Source of the DNA: an uncultured Prevotellaceae bacterium
GTDB lineage: Bacteria; Bacteroidota; Bacteroidia; Bacteroidales; Bacteroidaceae
NCBI GenBank assembly: GCA_900315565.1
Contig: OMZS01000028.1
Location: forward strand, 1-57,709
Direction: 5' to 3'
Length of the DNA: 57,709 bases
Program-made: the position numbers and the translations under genes
Notes under the pieces: generated by a model
What the model saw: only the letters and a program-made list of their open reading frames with translations
Database searches by the model: none
What the model was told of the DNA's origin: nothing
Shown: in pieces, positions 22,097-56,775 of the stretch
Layout: each line of letters begins with the position of its first letter
How positions within the stretch are numbered: the stretch's first letter is position 1

Positions 22097-22230
22097 ACAA
22101 CTCACGGCATTGCAGCAAAATTTTCTAGAGAATTTTGCTGCAACGCCGTGAGTTATTTTTTTATCGTCGCGTTTTACGGAAATATTACCGTGAGTTATTT
22201 TTTTTCGTCGTGAGTTACGAAAATATTACC
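22097..22230. repeat. CGTCGTGAGTTA / TCTAGA repeat family, copy 1
   Basis: Contains AAAATTTTCTAGAGAATTTT, then CGCCGTGAGTTATTTTTT, ACGGAAATATTACCGTGAG, and TCGTCGTGAGTTACG. The same words recur at 30176-30280 and 56928-57010. All three places are between genes. Confidence 0.65.
22099..22154. terminator. Long terminator-like hairpin after the GH106-like gene
   Basis: A 24-bp stem (22099-22122 with 22131-22154) with one G-T pair and an 8-nt loop containing TCTAGA. It is followed by a T-run on the plus strand. Its arms share the CGTGAGTT and AAAATT words with the repeat family at 30176 and 56915, so it may be a member of that family used as a terminator. Confidence 0.75.
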
Positions 22231-22326
22231 GTGAGATAATTCTGTGTTTTTACCGTTTTCAGAAAAATCTTTTACGGGTAAACAGAAAATCACTTCCTTT
22301 TCATTCAGAAAGTCAATTTTTTGCAT

Positions 22327-30126: not shown

Positions 30127-30175
30127 AGTGTTTTTGTTTCTTAAGTTATTTGTTTGTTTTCTTGGATTGTTTTTC

Positions 30176-30280
30176 TATCGTCGTGAGTTACGTCAAAATT
30201 TTCTAGAGAATAATTTCGTATCGTCGTGAGTTACGCCAAAATTTTCTAGAGAATAATTTCGTATCGTCGTGAGTTATTTT
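30176..30280. repeat. CGTCGTGAGTTA / TCTAGA repeat family, copy 2 (tandem)
   Basis: Two and a half copies of a 43-bp unit starting at 30176, 30219 and 30262. Each unit contains ATCGTCGTGAGTTACG and AAAATTTTCTAGAGAATAATTTCG. It fills the spacer between the LacI gene and uxaA, hence in the leader of uxaA or the 3' end of the lacI transcript. Confidence 0.75.
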
Positions 30281-50782: not shown

Positions 50783-50790
50783 TAATTTTG
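50783..50790 (+). promoter_or_regulatory. -7 box of the nqr operon
   Basis: TAATTTTG fits TAnnTTTG, 42 nt before the nqrA ATG at 50833. It lies in a T-rich stretch. Confidence 0.5.
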
Positions 50791-50832
50791 CCCACATTAT
50801 TCCGAATAATATTTTTTTTAAGCATAGTTTTT

Positions 50833-52182
50833 ATGGCAAATGTAATTAAATTGCGTAAGGGCTTGGACATTCACCTGCAAGGCAGAGCCAAGGAAGAGAA
50901 GCTTACGTTGAAGCCAAAGGACGAGATTGGACTCGTTCCCGAAGGTTTTACGGGCGTTACTCCCAAGGTGGTCGTCAAAGAGGGTGACATTGTCAAAGCC
51001 GGGGATGCTTTGTTTGTCAACAAGCAGTTTCCCGATGTGAAGTTTGCCTCGCCCGTGAGCGGCCAAGTAACGGCCGTGGTTCGAGGTGAACGGCGTAAAG
51101 TGCTTTGCGTCAAAGTAAAACGTGATGCTCAGCAGCAGTTTGTGGATTTCGGAAAGAAGGATGTGCAAAAGCTGACTGGCGAGGCTGTTAAGGGCGCGCT
51201 TCTCGAAGCAGGCCTTTTTGGCTTCATCAACCAGCTGCCTTATGCCATCTCTACTAACCCGGAAACTTCGCCCAAAGCTATTTTTGTGAGTGCTCTGCGC
51301 GACATGCCGTTGGCTGCCGACTTTGAGTTCGAACTGAAAGGCAACGAAGCCGATTTTCAAACGGGCTTGACGGCATTGTCGAAAATAGCGAAAACCTATC
51401 TTGGTATTGGTGCCGCTCAGCAGGCTGCTGCTCTGACGGGTGCCAAGGATGTTGAGGTGAACGTGTTTGACGGAAAGTGCCCTGCTGGCAACGTGGGCGT
51501 TCAGGTGAACCATCTTGACCCTGTGAACAAGGGTGAGGTGGTCTGGACTGTTGACCCGAGTGCTGTTATTTTCTTTGGGCGCCTGTTCAACACCGGGCGC
51601 GTTGATTTGCGCCGTACCATAGCCGTGACAGGCAGCGAGGTGCAGAACCCCGCTTATGCCGAGGTGCTGGTGGGCGAACAGATTGGCACGCTGCTTGAGG
51701 GCCAGCTCAAAGGCGATAAGAAGGTGCGTATCATCAACGGTAACGTGCTGACCGGACGGCCTGCCTCTGCCGATGACTATGTAGGTGCTCATGTGAGCGA
51801 AATTACCGTGATTCCCGAAGGCGACGACGCCAATGAGATGCTGGGTTGGATTATGCCTCGTCCCAGCCAGTTCTCTGTGAACCGCAGCTATTTCTCATGG
51901 CTTCAGGGCAAGAAGGAGTATGCTCTCGATGCCCGTGTGAAAGGTGGCGAGCGTCACATGATTATGAGTGGCGAATACGACAAAGTGCTGCCTATGGACA
52001 TTTACGGCGAGTATCTCATTAAGGCTATTATTGCTGGCGACATCGACAAGATGGAGCAGCTTGGCATCTATGAGGTGGCTCCCGAGGATTTTGCCTTGGC
52101 AGAGTTCGTGGATAGCTCTAAGCTCGAATTGCAACGTATTGTGCGCGAGGGTCTTGACATGCTCCGCAAAGAGAATGCGTAA
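50833..52182 (+). CDS. nqrA: Na+-translocating NADH:quinone reductase subunit A
   Basis: A 449-residue peripheral subunit that takes part in quinone binding. The start at 50833 (MANVIKLRKGLDIHLQGRAKEE) is chosen because it matches the family's usual beginning; the frame is open to 50788. The biotinyl/lipoyl-like N-terminal region (VVKEGDIVKAGDALFVNKQFPDVKFASPVSGQV) and the later NRSYFSWLQGKKEYALDARVKGGERHMIMSGEYDKVLPMDI are diagnostic. It opens the six-gene nqr operon. Confidence 0.96.
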   Translation: MANVIKLRKGLDIHLQGRAKEEKLTLKPKDEIGLVPEGFTGVTPKVVVKEGDIVKAGDALFVNKQFPDVKFASPVSGQVTAVVRGERRKVLCVKVKRDAQQQFVDFGKKDVQKLTGEAVKGALLEAGLFGFINQLPYAISTNPETSPKAIFVSALRDMPLAADFEFELKGNEADFQTGLTALSKIAKTYLGIGAAQQAAALTGAKDVEVNVFDGKCPAGNVGVQVNHLDPVNKGEVVWTVDPSAVIFFGRLFNTGRVDLRRTIAVTGSEVQNPAYAEVLVGEQIGTLLEGQLKGDKKVRIINGNVLTGRPASADDYVGAHVSEITVIPEGDDANEMLGWIMPRPSQFSVNRSYFSWLQGKKEYALDARVKGGERHMIMSGEYDKVLPMDIYGEYLIKAIIAGDIDKMEQLGIYEVAPEDFALAEFVDSSKLELQRIVREGLDMLRKENA

Positions 52183-52230: not shown

Positions 52231-53391
52231 ATGAGCGCATTAAGAAATTATCTGGACAAGATAAAGCCCAACTTCGAGGAGGGGGGCAAGCTTCATGCAT
52301 TCCGTAGCGTGTTTGACGGTTTTGAGACTTTCCTGTACGTGCCCAACACGACGGCGAAAAGCGGAACCAACATTCACGACGCGATTGACTCGAAGCGCAT
52401 TATGAGTATGGTGGTCATTGCATTGATGCCTGCCATGCTGTTCGGTATGTACAATGTGGGCTACCAGAACTATCTGGCTGCAGGAACTCTTGAGCAGGCT
52501 AGTTTCTGGAGCATCTTCTTCTACGGATTCCTGGCTGTGCTGCCCAAAATCCTTGTTTCCTATATTGTTGGTCTTGGCATTGAGTTTATTTGGGCTCAGT
52601 GGAAAGGCGAGGAGATTCAGGAAGGCTATCTTGTGAGTGGTATCATCATTCCGCTCATCATTCCCATTGGCTGCCCGTTGTGGATGCTCGCCTTGGCTTG
52701 TGCCTTTGCGGTGATTTTTGCTAAGGAAATCTTCGGTGGTACGGGCATGAACATTTTCAATGTAGCCATTGCTGCACGTATGTTCCTTTTCTTCTCTTAT
52801 CCTTCGAAGATGACCGGTGACAACATTTGGGTTTCCACCGATTCTATTTTCGGCCTTGGCAACACGCTCCCCGACGCTTTCACGGCAGCAACGCCTCTCG
52901 GACAAGTAGGGCAGGGGGCTGAGGTTACAGCTTCGCTTTGCGATATGATAACGGGTTTCATTCCCGGTTCTATTGGCGAGACCTCGGTGATTGCCATTGC
53001 CATTGGAGCTGTTATTCTGCTTTGGACGGGCATTGCTTCGTGGCGAACCATGCTGAGTGTTTTCGTTGGCGGTGCCTTGATGGCATGTCTGTTTGAGTCA
53101 ACGGGTGCTTCGCCCCTTCATTGGTACGAGCACATCGTGCTGGGTGGATTCTGCTTTGGTGCCGTGTTTATGGCTACCGACCCTGTTACCTCATGCCGCA
53201 CAAATACGGGTATGTATATTTACGGCTTCCTCATTGGTGCCATGGCTGTCATCATTCGCGTGATGAACCCGGGCTATCCCGAGGGAATGATGCTTGCCAT
53301 CTTCTTTGGTAATATGTTTGCTGCCACCATCGACCACTTTGTGGTGGAGCGCAATATCTCGAAACGTTTAAAGAGAGGAGGTACAAAATGA
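52231..53391 (+). CDS. nqrB: Na+-translocating NADH:quinone reductase subunit B
   Basis: A 386-residue membrane subunit with about 9-10 TM segments. It carries a covalent FMN on a Thr in the SGAT-type motif; here the corresponding segment is DAFTAATPLGQ near residue 221, so the motif reads TAAT with the acceptor Thr kept. It forms the Na+ path with the other subunits. Its stop overlaps the nqrC start by 4 bp (ATGA). Confidence 0.96.
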   Translation: MSALRNYLDKIKPNFEEGGKLHAFRSVFDGFETFLYVPNTTAKSGTNIHDAIDSKRIMSMVVIALMPAMLFGMYNVGYQNYLAAGTLEQASFWSIFFYGFLAVLPKILVSYIVGLGIEFIWAQWKGEEIQEGYLVSGIIIPLIIPIGCPLWMLALACAFAVIFAKEIFGGTGMNIFNVAIAARMFLFFSYPSKMTGDNIWVSTDSIFGLGNTLPDAFTAATPLGQVGQGAEVTASLCDMITGFIPGSIGETSVIAIAIGAVILLWTGIASWRTMLSVFVGGALMACLFESTGASPLHWYEHIVLGGFCFGAVFMATDPVTSCRTNTGMYIYGFLIGAMAVIIRVMNPGYPEGMMLAIFFGNMFAATIDHFVVERNISKRLKRGGTK

Positions 53392-54221
53392 AATTGAACA
53401 CCAATTCGAATTCGTACATTATTATATATAGTGCGATTCTCGTTGTCGTTGTAGCCTTCCTGCTGGCATTCGTCTATCAGGCCTTGAAGCCGATGCAGGA
53501 TGCGAACGTGGCCCTTGATGTTAAAAAGCAGATTCTTTACTCGCTGAACATCCGCGACCTCGATGGCGCTGAGGCTGAAGCCAAGTATGCCGAAGTGGTG
53601 AAGGAAGAAGCCGAGAAGGACGGGCAGAAGTACTACCTGTGTGAGATCGACGGTGAGGATATCCTCGTAGTCGCCCTGAAGGGAATGGGTCTCTGGGGTG
53701 GTATCAGCGGTTATGTCTCCATCCACGGTGATGAATCGCCGACCGTCTATGGTGCCTACTTCAATCATGAGAGTGAGACGGCTGGCCTTGGTGCTGAGAT
53801 TAAGGATTCTCAGGCCTGGCAGGAGAAGTTTATCGGCAAGAAAGTCTTCGTCGATGGTACTCAGGATGTGGCTATCTCTATTGTGAAGAAGGTGGAAGAC
53901 CCCACGACACAGGTTGACTGTGTGACGGGTGCCACACTGACTTCTAATGGTGTGAATGATATGATTAAGACTGGTCTGAAGGATGCCGGAAAGAATGGCG
54001 TCGAACTCTTTGTGAAGATGATGTGCACGCCTGACTCTGAGAAAGACTGCTGCAAGGATGCTGCCAAAGATTGCTGCAAAGAAAAAGCTAATGACTGCTG
54101 TCAGGCTGCTGAGAAGGACTGCAGCAAGGAGAATTGCAAAGAGAACTGCAAGGGCGATTGTACTGACTGCAGCAAAGACAACAGCAAGGACTGCTGCAAA
54201 CATAATAATAAGGAGGAGTAA
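53388..54221 (+). CDS. nqrC: Na+-translocating NADH:quinone reductase subunit C with a Cys-rich repeat tail
   Basis: A 277-residue subunit. One TM segment lies at about residues 11-31, and the rest is periplasmic. The FMN-binding domain ends near residue 212, with the covalent FMN site TGAT at 180-183 (acceptor Thr183) and NGVNDMIKTGL. From 213 on there is a tail absent from the usual NqrC: MMC-type start, then seven consecutive 8-residue units at 219-274 (KDCCKDAA, KDCCKEKA, NDCCQAAE, KDCSKENC, KENCKGDC, TDCSKDNS, KDCCKHNN) and KEE. It has 14 Cys in 65 residues, with Lys, Asp and Glu between them. The tail is in frame, and nqrD begins 3 bp later, so it is not a frameshift. Confidence 0.93.
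   Translation: MKLNTNSNSYIIIYSAILVVVVAFLLAFVYQALKPMQDANVALDVKKQILYSLNIRDLDGAEAEAKYAEVVKEEAEKDGQKYYLCEIDGEDILVVALKGMGLWGGISGYVSIHGDESPTVYGAYFNHESETAGLGAEIKDSQAWQEKFIGKKVFVDGTQDVAISIVKKVEDPTTQVDCVTGATLTSNGVNDMIKTGLKDAGKNGVELFVKMMCTPDSEKDCCKDAAKDCCKEKANDCCQAAEKDCSKENCKENCKGDCTDCSKDNSKDCCKHNNKEE
54042..54209 (+). repeat. 24-bp repeats coding for the NqrC Cys-rich tail
   Basis: Seven 24-bp units encode the octads of the NqrC tail. The DNA shares words like GACTGCTGCAAG. The units have drifted in sequence, so this is not a recent expansion. Confidence 0.75.
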
Positions 54222-54224
54222 ATT

Positions 54225-54848
54225 ATGGCACTATTCAGTAAACAAAACAAAGAGGCTCTCACCAATCCGTTGAACCTCGACCATCCCATTCTTATTCAAG
54301 TATTGGGTATTTGTTCGGCACTTGCCGTCACTTCGCAGCTGAAGCCTGCCATTGTGATGGGACTGGCCGTGACGGTAATCACATCATTTGCCAATGTCAT
54401 CATCTCTGTGCTTCGCAACACTATTCCCAACCGCATCCGTATCGTGGTGCAGCTGGTGGTGGTTGCTGCCCTTGTTACCATCGTGTCGCAGATTCTGAAG
54501 GCCTTTGCCTACGACGTGAGCGTACAGCTGTCAGTCTATGTGGGCCTGATTATCACCAACTGCATTCTCATGGGACGCCTCGAGGCGTTTGCCATGCAGA
54601 ACAAGCCCTGGCCGTCGTTCCTCGATGGTATTGGCAACGGCCTTGGTTACGCCATGATTTTGGTCATCGTTGGTGCTTTCCGCGAGTTCTTCGGACGCGG
54701 CTCTCTGCTCGGTTTCCAAATCATTCCTCAGTCGGTGTATGATTTTGGCTATCAGAACAACGGTATGATGACCATGCCTGCCATGGCGCTCATTCTGGTT
54801 GGATGTGTCATTTGGGTTCATCGTGCTTACTTTTATAAGGAGAAATAA
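54225..54848 (+). CDS. nqrD: Na+-translocating NADH:quinone reductase subunit D
   Basis: A 207-residue integral membrane subunit with six TM segments, homologous to RnfE. NPLNLDHPILIQVLGICSALAVT near the start and LIITNCILMGRLEAFAMQNKP near 110, including the conserved Cys near 113 that takes part in the intramembrane iron centre formed with NqrE. It lies 3 bp after nqrC and 3 bp before nqrE. Confidence 0.96.
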   Translation: MALFSKQNKEALTNPLNLDHPILIQVLGICSALAVTSQLKPAIVMGLAVTVITSFANVIISVLRNTIPNRIRIVVQLVVVAALVTIVSQILKAFAYDVSVQLSVYVGLIITNCILMGRLEAFAMQNKPWPSFLDGIGNGLGYAMILVIVGAFREFFGRGSLLGFQIIPQSVYDFGYQNNGMMTMPAMALILVGCVIWVHRAYFYKEK

Positions 54849-54851
54849 GTT

Positions 54852-55478
54852 ATGGAACACGCAATAAGTTTATTCTTTAGGTCGATTTTTGTCGACAACA
54901 TGATTTTCGCCTTCTTCCTCGGCATGTGTTCCTACCTTGCCGTGTCGAAGACCGTGAAAACATCCTTGGGCCTGGGCTTGGCCGTCACGTTCGTTCTGTT
55001 TGTCACCGTTCCCGTTGACTATTTGTTACAGACCAAGGTGCTTGGCCCCGACTGTCTCATCGAGGGTGTTGACCTCTCGTATCTGAGTTTCATTCTCTTC
55101 ATCGCCGTTATTGCCGGAATTGTGCAGTTGGTGGAGATGATCGTAGAAAAATACAGCCCCTCGCTCTATGCCGCTCTGGGCATCTTCCTTCCGCTCATTG
55201 CCGTTAACTGTGCCATCATGGGTGCTTCGCTCTTCATGCAGCAGCGCATACTGCTCGACCCCACCAACACACAGGCTATCACATCTGTATGGGATGCTAT
55301 GGTCTATGCAGTAGGTTCGGGCATCGGATGGACGCTGGCCATTGTATCTCTGGGTGCTATTCGCGAAAAAATGCAGTATTGCGACGTTCCCAAGCCCTTG
55401 CAGGGACTGGGCATCACGTTCATTACTGTAGGACTGATGGCCATGGCCATGATGTGTTTCAGCGGCCTGAATATTTAG
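54852..55478 (+). CDS. nqrE: Na+-translocating NADH:quinone reductase subunit E
   Basis: A 208-residue integral membrane subunit with six TM segments, homologous to Rnf[26 protein letters not shown] near 12-36 holds one conserved Cys, and [17 protein letters not shown] near 113-129 another. Together with NqrD they bind an iron centre in the membrane. Overlap of function with RnfA is excluded by the complete nqr context. Confidence 0.96.
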
Positions 55479-55509: not shown

Positions 55510-56775
55510 ATGGGACAGTTTATTTTATATAGCATATTAGTGTTTCTGATTACGATTCTTGTACTCGTAGTCGTTCTGCTCGTAGCCAAGAAGTATCTCA
55601 GCCCGAGCGGAAATGTGAACATCGAAATCAACGGCGACCGGACCATCAACGTGCCTCAGGGAAACAACCTGATGTCAACACTCAACGAGAACGGCATCTT
55701 CCTTCCCTCTGCTTGCGGCGGAAAGGCATCGTGTGGACAATGCAAGGTGCAGGTGCTCGAGGGTGGGGGAGAAATCCTCGACTCAGAGAAGCCCCACTTC
55801 ACCCGCAAGGAAATCAAGAACCATTGGCGACTGGGATGCCAGTGCAAGGTGAAAGGCGATCTGAAAATCCATGTCAACGAGTCTATCCTTGGTGTCAAGG
55901 AATACGAGTGTACCGTCATCTCCAACAAGAACGTGGCCACCTTTATCAAGGAATTCAAGGTGCAGTTGCCTAAGGGCGAGCACATGGACTTCATCCCTGG
56001 CTCTTACGCTCAGATTAAGATTCCTGCCTTCACCATGGATTATGACAAGGACATCGACAAGAGCCTTATTGGCGACGAGTATCTGCCCAGTTGGGAGAAG
56101 TTCGGCCTGTTCCCCCTCAAGTGCGTCAATCCCGAGCCCACCATCCGTGCTTACTCCATGGCCAACTATCCGGCCGAAGGCGACGTGTTCATGCTGACCG
56201 TGCGTATTGCAACGCCTCCGTTTAAGCCCGACCGCAGCGGATTCATGGATGTCAATCCGGGTATTGCCTCCAGTTATATCTTCTCGCTCAAGCCGGGCGA
56301 CAAGGTGATAATGAGTGGCCCGTTTGGCGACTTCCATCCGCATTTCGACTCCAAGCGCGAAATGATATGGGTTGGCGGTGGTGCCGGTATGGCTCCCCTG
56401 CGTGCACAAATTATGCACATGACCAAGACTCTCCACACTACCGACCGCGAAATGCACTATTTCTACGGTGCACGTGCGCTCAACGAGGTCTTCTATCTCG
56501 ACGACTTCCTCGGACTGGAGAAAGAATTCCCCAACTTCCACTTCCACCTCGCGCTCGACCGCCCCGATCCCGCAGCCGACGCAGCTGGAGTGAAATACAC
56601 CCCGGGATTCGTACATCAGGTCATGTTCAACACCTATCTTAAAGACCATGAGGCTCCCGAAGACGTGGAGTACTACATGTGCGGCCCCGGCCCCATGTCA
56701 AATGCAGTTGTTCAGATGCTCGACTCGCTTGGCGTAGAGCCCGAATCAATTATGTACGACAACTTCGGAGGATAA
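55510..56775 (+). CDS. nqrF: Na+-translocating NADH:quinone reductase subunit F
   Basis: A 421-residue subunit that oxidises NADH. One TM segment lies at about residues 5-26. The 2Fe-2S ferredoxin domain has C69, C75, C78 and C110 (ACGGKASCGQC ... LGCQC). The FAD site is RAYSMANYPAEG near 216, and the NADH site WVGGGAGMAPLRAQI near 288 and CGPGPM near 395. All cofactor motifs are intact. It ends the operon, which is closed by the terminator at 56822. Confidence 0.97.
   Translation: MGQFILYSILVFLITILVLVVVLLVAKKYLSPSGNVNIEINGDRTINVPQGNNLMSTLNENGIFLPSACGGKASCGQCKVQVLEGGGEILDSEKPHFTRKEIKNHWRLGCQCKVKGDLKIHVNESILGVKEYECTVISNKNVATFIKEFKVQLPKGEHMDFIPGSYAQIKIPAFTMDYDKDIDKSLIGDEYLPSWEKFGLFPLKCVNPEPTIRAYSMANYPAEGDVFMLTVRIATPPFKPDRSGFMDVNPGIASSYIFSLKPGDKVIMSGPFGDFHPHFDSKREMIWVGGGAGMAPLRAQIMHMTKTLHTTDREMHYFYGARALNEVFYLDDFLGLEKEFPNFHFHLALDRPDPAADAAGVKYTPGFVHQVMFNTYLKDHEAPEDVEYYMCGPGPMSNAVVQMLDSLGVEPESIMYDNFGG

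Follow-up and report, generated by a model that had tools for sequence, protein, structure and literature searches.

Recurrent cysteine-rich tails on the NqrC subunit of Na+-NQR, candidate soft-metal-binding appendages in one family of Bacteroidales

The nqr operon and the C-terminus of NqrC

Examination of the window, that is the whole analysed stretch of 57,709 nucleotides from an uncultured Prevotellaceae bacterium, reveals a complete nqrABCDEF operon with all six genes on the plus strand. Its features are as follows:

50788..52182, plus strand: nqrA, listed from a TTG (the real start is possibly internal)
52231..53391, plus strand: nqrB
53388..54221, plus strand: nqrC with Cys-rich tail, 277 aa (Pfam FMN_bind, TIGR01938, PDB NqrC chains)
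53409..53543, plus strand: N-terminal helix of NqrC, residues 8-52 (AlphaFold model)
53688..53981, plus strand: FMN-binding domain of NqrC, residues 101-198 (Pfam PF04205)
53934..53936, plus strand: codon of Thr183 in the TGAT motif, predicted covalent FMN site (T183 invariant in the alignment)
54024..54026, plus strand: codon of NqrC Cys213, present in most close relatives
54042..54209, plus strand: seven octads with 13 Cys (sequence and AlphaFold pLDDT)
54210..54221, plus strand: KEE end and stop, with AAGGAGGAG directly before the nqrD start and the octads upstream (alignment with five close relatives)
54225..54848, plus strand: nqrD
54852..55478, plus strand: nqrE
55510..56775, plus strand: nqrF

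The product of the third gene belongs to the NqrC subunits of Na+-NQR, as is indicated by its FMN_bind domain (Pfam, E 1.6e-14), TGAT Thr, N-terminal helix and location in a six-gene nqr operon; it also scores 151.7 bits with the TIGR01938 nqrC profile (cut-off 144) and matches NqrC chains among PDB sequences. It resembles the NqrC proteins of P. bryantii and Vibrio cholerae in operon place, transmembrane helix, FMN domain and TGAT Thr. The Thr equivalent to T183 is known in Vibrio NqrC and predicted in the P. bryantii protein, and the FMN domain lies on the periplasmic side (both from the available part of PMC10739449). In the AlphaFold model the block pLDDT values are 94-97 over residues 11-60, where the helix is expected to hold a single membrane span, and 76-95 over residues 101-200; from residue 211 onward they drop from 58 to 38, and the tail is predicted to be disordered. 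At 210 aa, according to the available part of PMC6560451, P. bryantii NqrC leaves no room for such a tail.

A preliminary description of this locus, made from the sequence, had pointed to an in-frame extension after the FMN domain, and the 65 residues (213-277) with 14 Cys coded by 54024-54218 bear this out. Its placement of the tail outside the cytoplasm is likewise to be expected from the periplasmic FMN domain of NqrC (PMC10739449, available part). The tail begins with C213, continues through seven octads with 13 Cys (KDCCKDAA, KDCCKEKA, NDCCQAAE, KDCSKENC, KENCKGDC, TDCSKDNS and KDCCKHNN) and ends in KEE and the stop; it contains one CxxC (CTDC) and a single His. The seven 8-residue units recognized earlier are thus present, but CC occurs in only four of the seven and the proposed pattern KDCCKxxA fits only units 1 and 2. 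The 8-residue Cys period is above chance, with 7 lag-8 Cys matches, a value reached by a fraction of 0.0008 of 20,000 shuffles; CC pairing in the window tail is not above chance given its Cys content (shuffle fraction 0.25). Since the octads, which have 62% of their bases in common on average, differ at all three codon positions (56/49/88 differences), codon drift within the window tail alone is weak evidence for selection. The tail has no match in Pfam, NCBIfam or PDB sequences, and a tail-only query recovered few other proteins, several of the matches being Arg-rich or non-coding-looking (L235, L238, L265).

Five of the closest relatives (G018, G160, G222, G244 and G356; 90-93% identical) have short acidic tails with one Cys, and G239, 83% identical and also ranked among the closest relatives, has a Cys tail. 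C213 is already found in most close relatives, as MMC or MQC, and is therefore older than the octads. When five tailless relatives are aligned, the extra DNA, a net 144 nt or six octads as compared to relatives of 229 aa, falls between the C213 region and the near-identical nqrD junction GGAGGAGTAAAYTATGGC, from which L057 deviates by one base (GAT before the stop). The tail leaves both the frame and the start of nqrD intact. Since the nearest relatives lack it, the tail is dispensable.

Distribution of Cys-rich tails

In the genus, NqrC was found in 337 of 398 genomes searched, and tails were read in 135 of the 337, mostly the most similar ones. With 80 further loci from named records (many of identical sequence) and one order-level locus, the genus set comprised 216 loci or 162 distinct proteins, one of which (L130) is unscorable (N). 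Taking five or more Cys in the tail as the threshold, 19 of the 161 scored distinct proteins have a Cys tail, each with at least two CC. The units are diverse, including KDCCKDSAEVCC, KDCCKDMKEDCC, DCCKEGK, SCCAEKTD, KKEGCCQAD and GGNCHSMEE. In composition the 19 tails are 18.8% C, 16.7% K, 2.9% H and 0.3% R, as compared to 3.1% C and 0.2% H in the other tails of the genus. On the tree of the genus NqrC cores at least 11 changes are needed, 6 of them forced by strong branches.

In the family, 263 of 301 genomes searched had NqrC, and the loci read were the best 29 besides the window and 20 picked for long open frames or matches, the latter not being a fair sample. Tails with five or more Cys emerged in six further genera (g34, g38, g44, g45, g48 and g54). 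They include nine HEGC units (L337), KHEGCGQ (L340), ECCKADCG (L315), CPKEDCPMAG (L342), a unit CADCTKECKDGKK common to L419 and L430, and metallothionein-like tails with as many as 35 Cys (L344) and 29 Cys (L427). A sample of one genome per genus in the family (27, of which 26 were read) yielded one tail with five Cys and one with four. Ten of 20 further genomes of g34 and 4 of 10 of g48 have tails with five or more Cys, these genera having been examined since tails were already seen there and some of the genomes overlapping the 20 length-picked loci. Outside the family no Cys tail was detected among the 15 loci read (of 17) at the order level or the 18 read (of 23) at the phylum level.

The comparison of related NqrC proteins that the preliminary description had proposed hence recovers recurrent Cys-rich tails, with unlike repeats in place of the octad. 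The conservation of the octad claimed there does not hold, as the closest relatives lack a Cys tail and other tails have units of other lengths; the recurring trait is accordingly richness in Cys, often with His, rather than the octad. A joint tree of 264 distinct NqrC proteins contains 39 with Cys tails, 224 without and the unscored L130 (39 of 263 scored); 21 loci were left out of it (12 duplicates, 8 without an open reading frame under the search pattern and 1 cut). On the joint core tree no fewer than 24 gain or loss events are required (17 of them forced by strong branches); this count is to be taken as a guide only in view of the many weak and some long branches. Together these comparisons show that Cys-rich NqrC tails have been gained or lost repeatedly in this family, in unlike forms and with at least 24 changes. 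A single ancestral tail that was later lost was considered, and both the unlike units and the trees speak against it.

Beyond NqrC, the same genome encodes a secreted glutathione peroxidase (GPx; L431:2249-2983 on contig C26, minus strand; GSHPx, 1.3e-40), which bears the Cys-repeat tail KKCCKKGEGKKCCKNNESKKGCKKDEDKKCC and whose C-terminal end reads KKCCKKGEGKKCCKNNESKKGCKKDEDKKCCKKGEAAKCGETK. The adjoining gene codes for a SlyD-like protein with an FKBP_C domain and the tail CGCDECGDSCGDGCGHNHHEGCGCGHCH. NqrC and GPx are the two proteins of this genome found with Cys-repeat tails. In a survey of 437 kb (13%) of the genome, in stretches chosen partly for holding these or similar matches, the NqrC tail was the densest Cys window (11 Cys in 45) of 707 open reading frames of at least 100 aa, shadow frames included; the GPx tail ranked second with 9 Cys and was followed by the SlyD-like gene with 8, tied with five non-coding-looking frames. 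Other members of the genus have Cys repeats on secreted proteins, namely GPx in G369, a DUF4890 protein in G187 and an LRR protein in G267. G369 combines a Cys-tailed GPx with an NqrC that has no Cys tail, and the two tails are hence not strictly coupled.

Several further observations were made around these proteins. In L266 and L267, secreted proteins of the DUF4890 and LRR types from other genomes of the genus, the repeats are internal and of the CCKEAKGCDKQ and KKHEGC-like types. Among 30 related loci the position of the GPx tail is in many cases taken by a fused nitroreductase-like domain, in one by a flavin-reductase-like and in two by a phosphatase-like domain (labels assigned by eye). 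Contig C26 also encodes a secreted protein (L140:1357-1953) with a Cys/His-rich mature N-terminus, CSQHEKCDKKEHCEKDCCKQ, and only a sub-threshold Pfam match. Two tandem arrays of the window (22146-22235 and 30172-30276) contain CGTGAGTTA, which has 6 matches where 0.24 would be expected by chance; its recurrence near L140 gives it the appearance of a dispersed intergenic repeat.

Signs of selection on the cysteines

The main null explanation for these tails is the neutral growth of an in-frame minisatellite without function, for which the absence of a tail in the closest relatives may be taken to speak. The preliminary description had argued for selection from conservation of the octad; the octad is not conserved, and the signs of selection that we did obtain concern Cys itself and come from the reading frame, close pairs of tails, a paralogue and what unlike tails have in common, namely Cys and often His. 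Across the 19 genus tails (1021 residues) the coding frame contains 81 CC dipeptides and the other five frames contain 0, 1, 8, 0 and 9, a near-confinement to the coding frame that speaks against neutral growth. Likewise, over seven close pairs Cys columns changed in 5 of 83 cases versus 64 of 316 for other columns (6% versus 20%, odds ratio 4.0, p=0.0017), the seven being chosen pairs of which no single one is significant (best p 0.051 and 0.063). The pair L118/L122 retains each of its six Cys, with 15 of 31 other residues changed. The sum leaves out two overlapping pairs with no Cys change (L413/L415 and L413/L416) and more distant gapped pairs with 0 to 4 changed Cys codons (L093/L051 2/14, L005/L052 1/11, L005/L055 4/14, L112/L164 3/15 and L053/L111 0/6).

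RnfG, which is related to NqrC, has a like topology and also bears covalent FMN (PMC4014512, available part), served as the paralogue control. From 30 genomes searched, 29 loci were taken and 28 read, 24 of these 28 genomes having a Cys-tailed NqrC; none of the 28 RnfG proteins has a Cys tail and none of their tails holds more than one Cys, a further result at odds with neutral growth.

Other features of the tails speak for the null. Whole units have been gained or lost in frame (8 residues in L051, 13 residues in L430), and the non-coding-looking minisatellite L265 reads as Cys repeats. L234 has a tail of KDASAKEK-like 8-residue repeats with Ser and without Cys, and offers itself for comparison as a case of neutral growth. 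In L048/L051, a pair outside the sum, the trend is opposite, with 3 of 14 Cys codons and 3 of 62 others changed, Cys thus being kept no better than other residues. The tails of this pair are near-identical (62 of 76 aligned codons) and their cores strongly different (90 of 188 codons identical), which suggests that the tail segment has recombined between species; exchange of such segments among lineages is probable.

Possible functions of the tail

Metallothioneins consist of about 20% Cys, are rich in Lys, are almost free of aromatics and Arg, and carry Cys pairs. The NqrC tails resemble them in their high content of Cys and Lys, near-absence of aromatics and Arg, CC (in some cases CxC) pairs and disorder as predicted from composition and pLDDT, but differ in being fused to a membrane redox subunit, in their unlike units and in not forming one homologous family. 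No Pfam match, to a metallothionein family or otherwise, was obtained with the window, L427, L337 and L315 tails, and L427 recovered from PDB sequences only a designed cystine knot (E 0.15). A second parallel is provided by SlyD, in which, as in NqrC, a variable unstructured terminal tail is attached to a folded enzyme. According to the available part of PMC7055735, E. coli SlyD, whose C-terminal tail varies from one SlyD to another, can take up as many as seven Ni(II), and the tail of H. pylori SlyD binds Ni and Zn. Some NqrC tails contain HEGC like the SlyD tail, and, as noted above, a SlyD-like gene adjoins the Cys-tailed GPx. Unlike in SlyD, the NqrC tail is expected to be periplasmic, in many cases has Cys only and is carried by a respiratory pump; Pfam detects no FKBP domain in NqrC, in contrast to the GPx-adjoining protein.

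Disordered Cys accompanied by Lys, Asp, Glu and at times His, on several periplasmic proteins and in unlike forms, favours a generic soft-metal ligand. Had the tail served one specific contact or a redox relay, a single motif should have been retained. We propose that the NqrC tail is probably a convergently gained, disordered, soft-metal-binding appendage of the metallothionein/SlyD kind on the periplasmic side of Na+-NQR. Metal binding, one of the functions raised in the preliminary description, is the best of those listed there, which also include oxidant scavenging, thiol buffering and tethering. For the tail thiols, Cu(I), Zn(II), Fe(II) or the like are the candidate ions; these might then be held beside the pump and beside the Cys-tailed secreted GPx, and in this way redox enzymes might be protected from soft metals or a small metal store might be kept. 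Pump protection or a metal reserve would be the likely use. At micromolar concentration Ag+ is a specific inhibitor of NQR, in P. bryantii among others (PMC6560451, available part); this inhibition was, however, measured on a species whose short NqrC has no room for a tail of this kind, and the Ag+ site may lie elsewhere in NQR. The recurrence of metallothionein-like tails on a core respiratory complex would indicate that selection acts at the periplasmic Na+-NQR face in gut anaerobes, with soft-metal protection or storage as the plain explanation and the variety of tails as a natural design series. The similar tail on the secreted GPx suggests that the protection of periplasmic redox enzymes is a more general practice.

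Alternatively, the tail could be a metal-dependent switch, tether or delivery arm, in which metal folds or cross-links the tail and so alters the docking of NqrC on NqrB or NqrD/E, or is passed on to a different secreted protein. The NqrC FMN domain has been modelled facing either NqrB or NqrD/E (PMC10739449, available part), and HypB gives up its nickel more readily under the action of the SlyD tail (PMC7055735, available part), both of which would suit such a role; we nevertheless consider it unlikely, as tails so unlike one another are hard to reconcile with one specific contact.

A thiol-disulphide relay, in which the NqrC FMN would reduce vicinal Cys pairs of the tail and these in turn periplasmic thiol proteins such as the Cys-tailed GPx, appears rather unlikely to us. 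It would agree with NqrC and GPx, the Cys-tailed proteins of this genome, both being redox proteins and with the one CxxC of the window tail. However, such a relay has no need for the enrichment in His, for HEGC or CHSMEE repeats or for 29-35 Cys; RnfG, with the topology and covalent FMN of NqrC (available part of PMC4014512), lacks a Cys tail in 28 genomes; and Cys repeats also occur on the DUF4890 and LRR proteins. Nor does the tail show the conserved CxxC within a fold that marks a thioredoxin-like relay: its single CTDC lies in a predicted-disordered region and is absent from the other tails compared in the genus.

Returning to the soft-metal-binding appendage, a rather improbable extension would have the tail load soft or iron/copper ions beside the exposed FMN, the pump thereby trapping periplasmic metal and reducing it by one electron; if true, the Na+-NQR of gut Bacteroidota would repeatedly have become a metal-handling surface that links respiration to metal supply or detoxification. 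Neutral slippage is a distinctly improbable account of the tails, disfavoured by the frame test, the constancy of Cys in pairs, the core trees with at least 24 gains or losses involving Cys in unlike units, and the empty RnfG control.

A search of the literature on NqrC, metallothioneins and Cys-rich proteins of Bacteroidetes/Prevotella, with subscription journals mostly outside its coverage, returned no mention of Cys-rich NqrC tails. The available parts of PMC10739449, PMC6560451, PMC8516057 and PMC4014512 do not mention one either, and the passage available from PMC11334425 deals with another protein.

A separate elaboration of NqrC is seen at its other end. Some NqrC proteins of the order begin with a rubredoxin-like domain of the rubrerythrin type (RUBY_RBDX, 8e-16 to 5e-15 in L409, L411 and L419), and a similar N-terminus was recognized by eye in those of L027, L030, L371, L401, L417 and L428. 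This domain is expected to be cytoplasmic, where it would constitute an extra metal site on NqrC.
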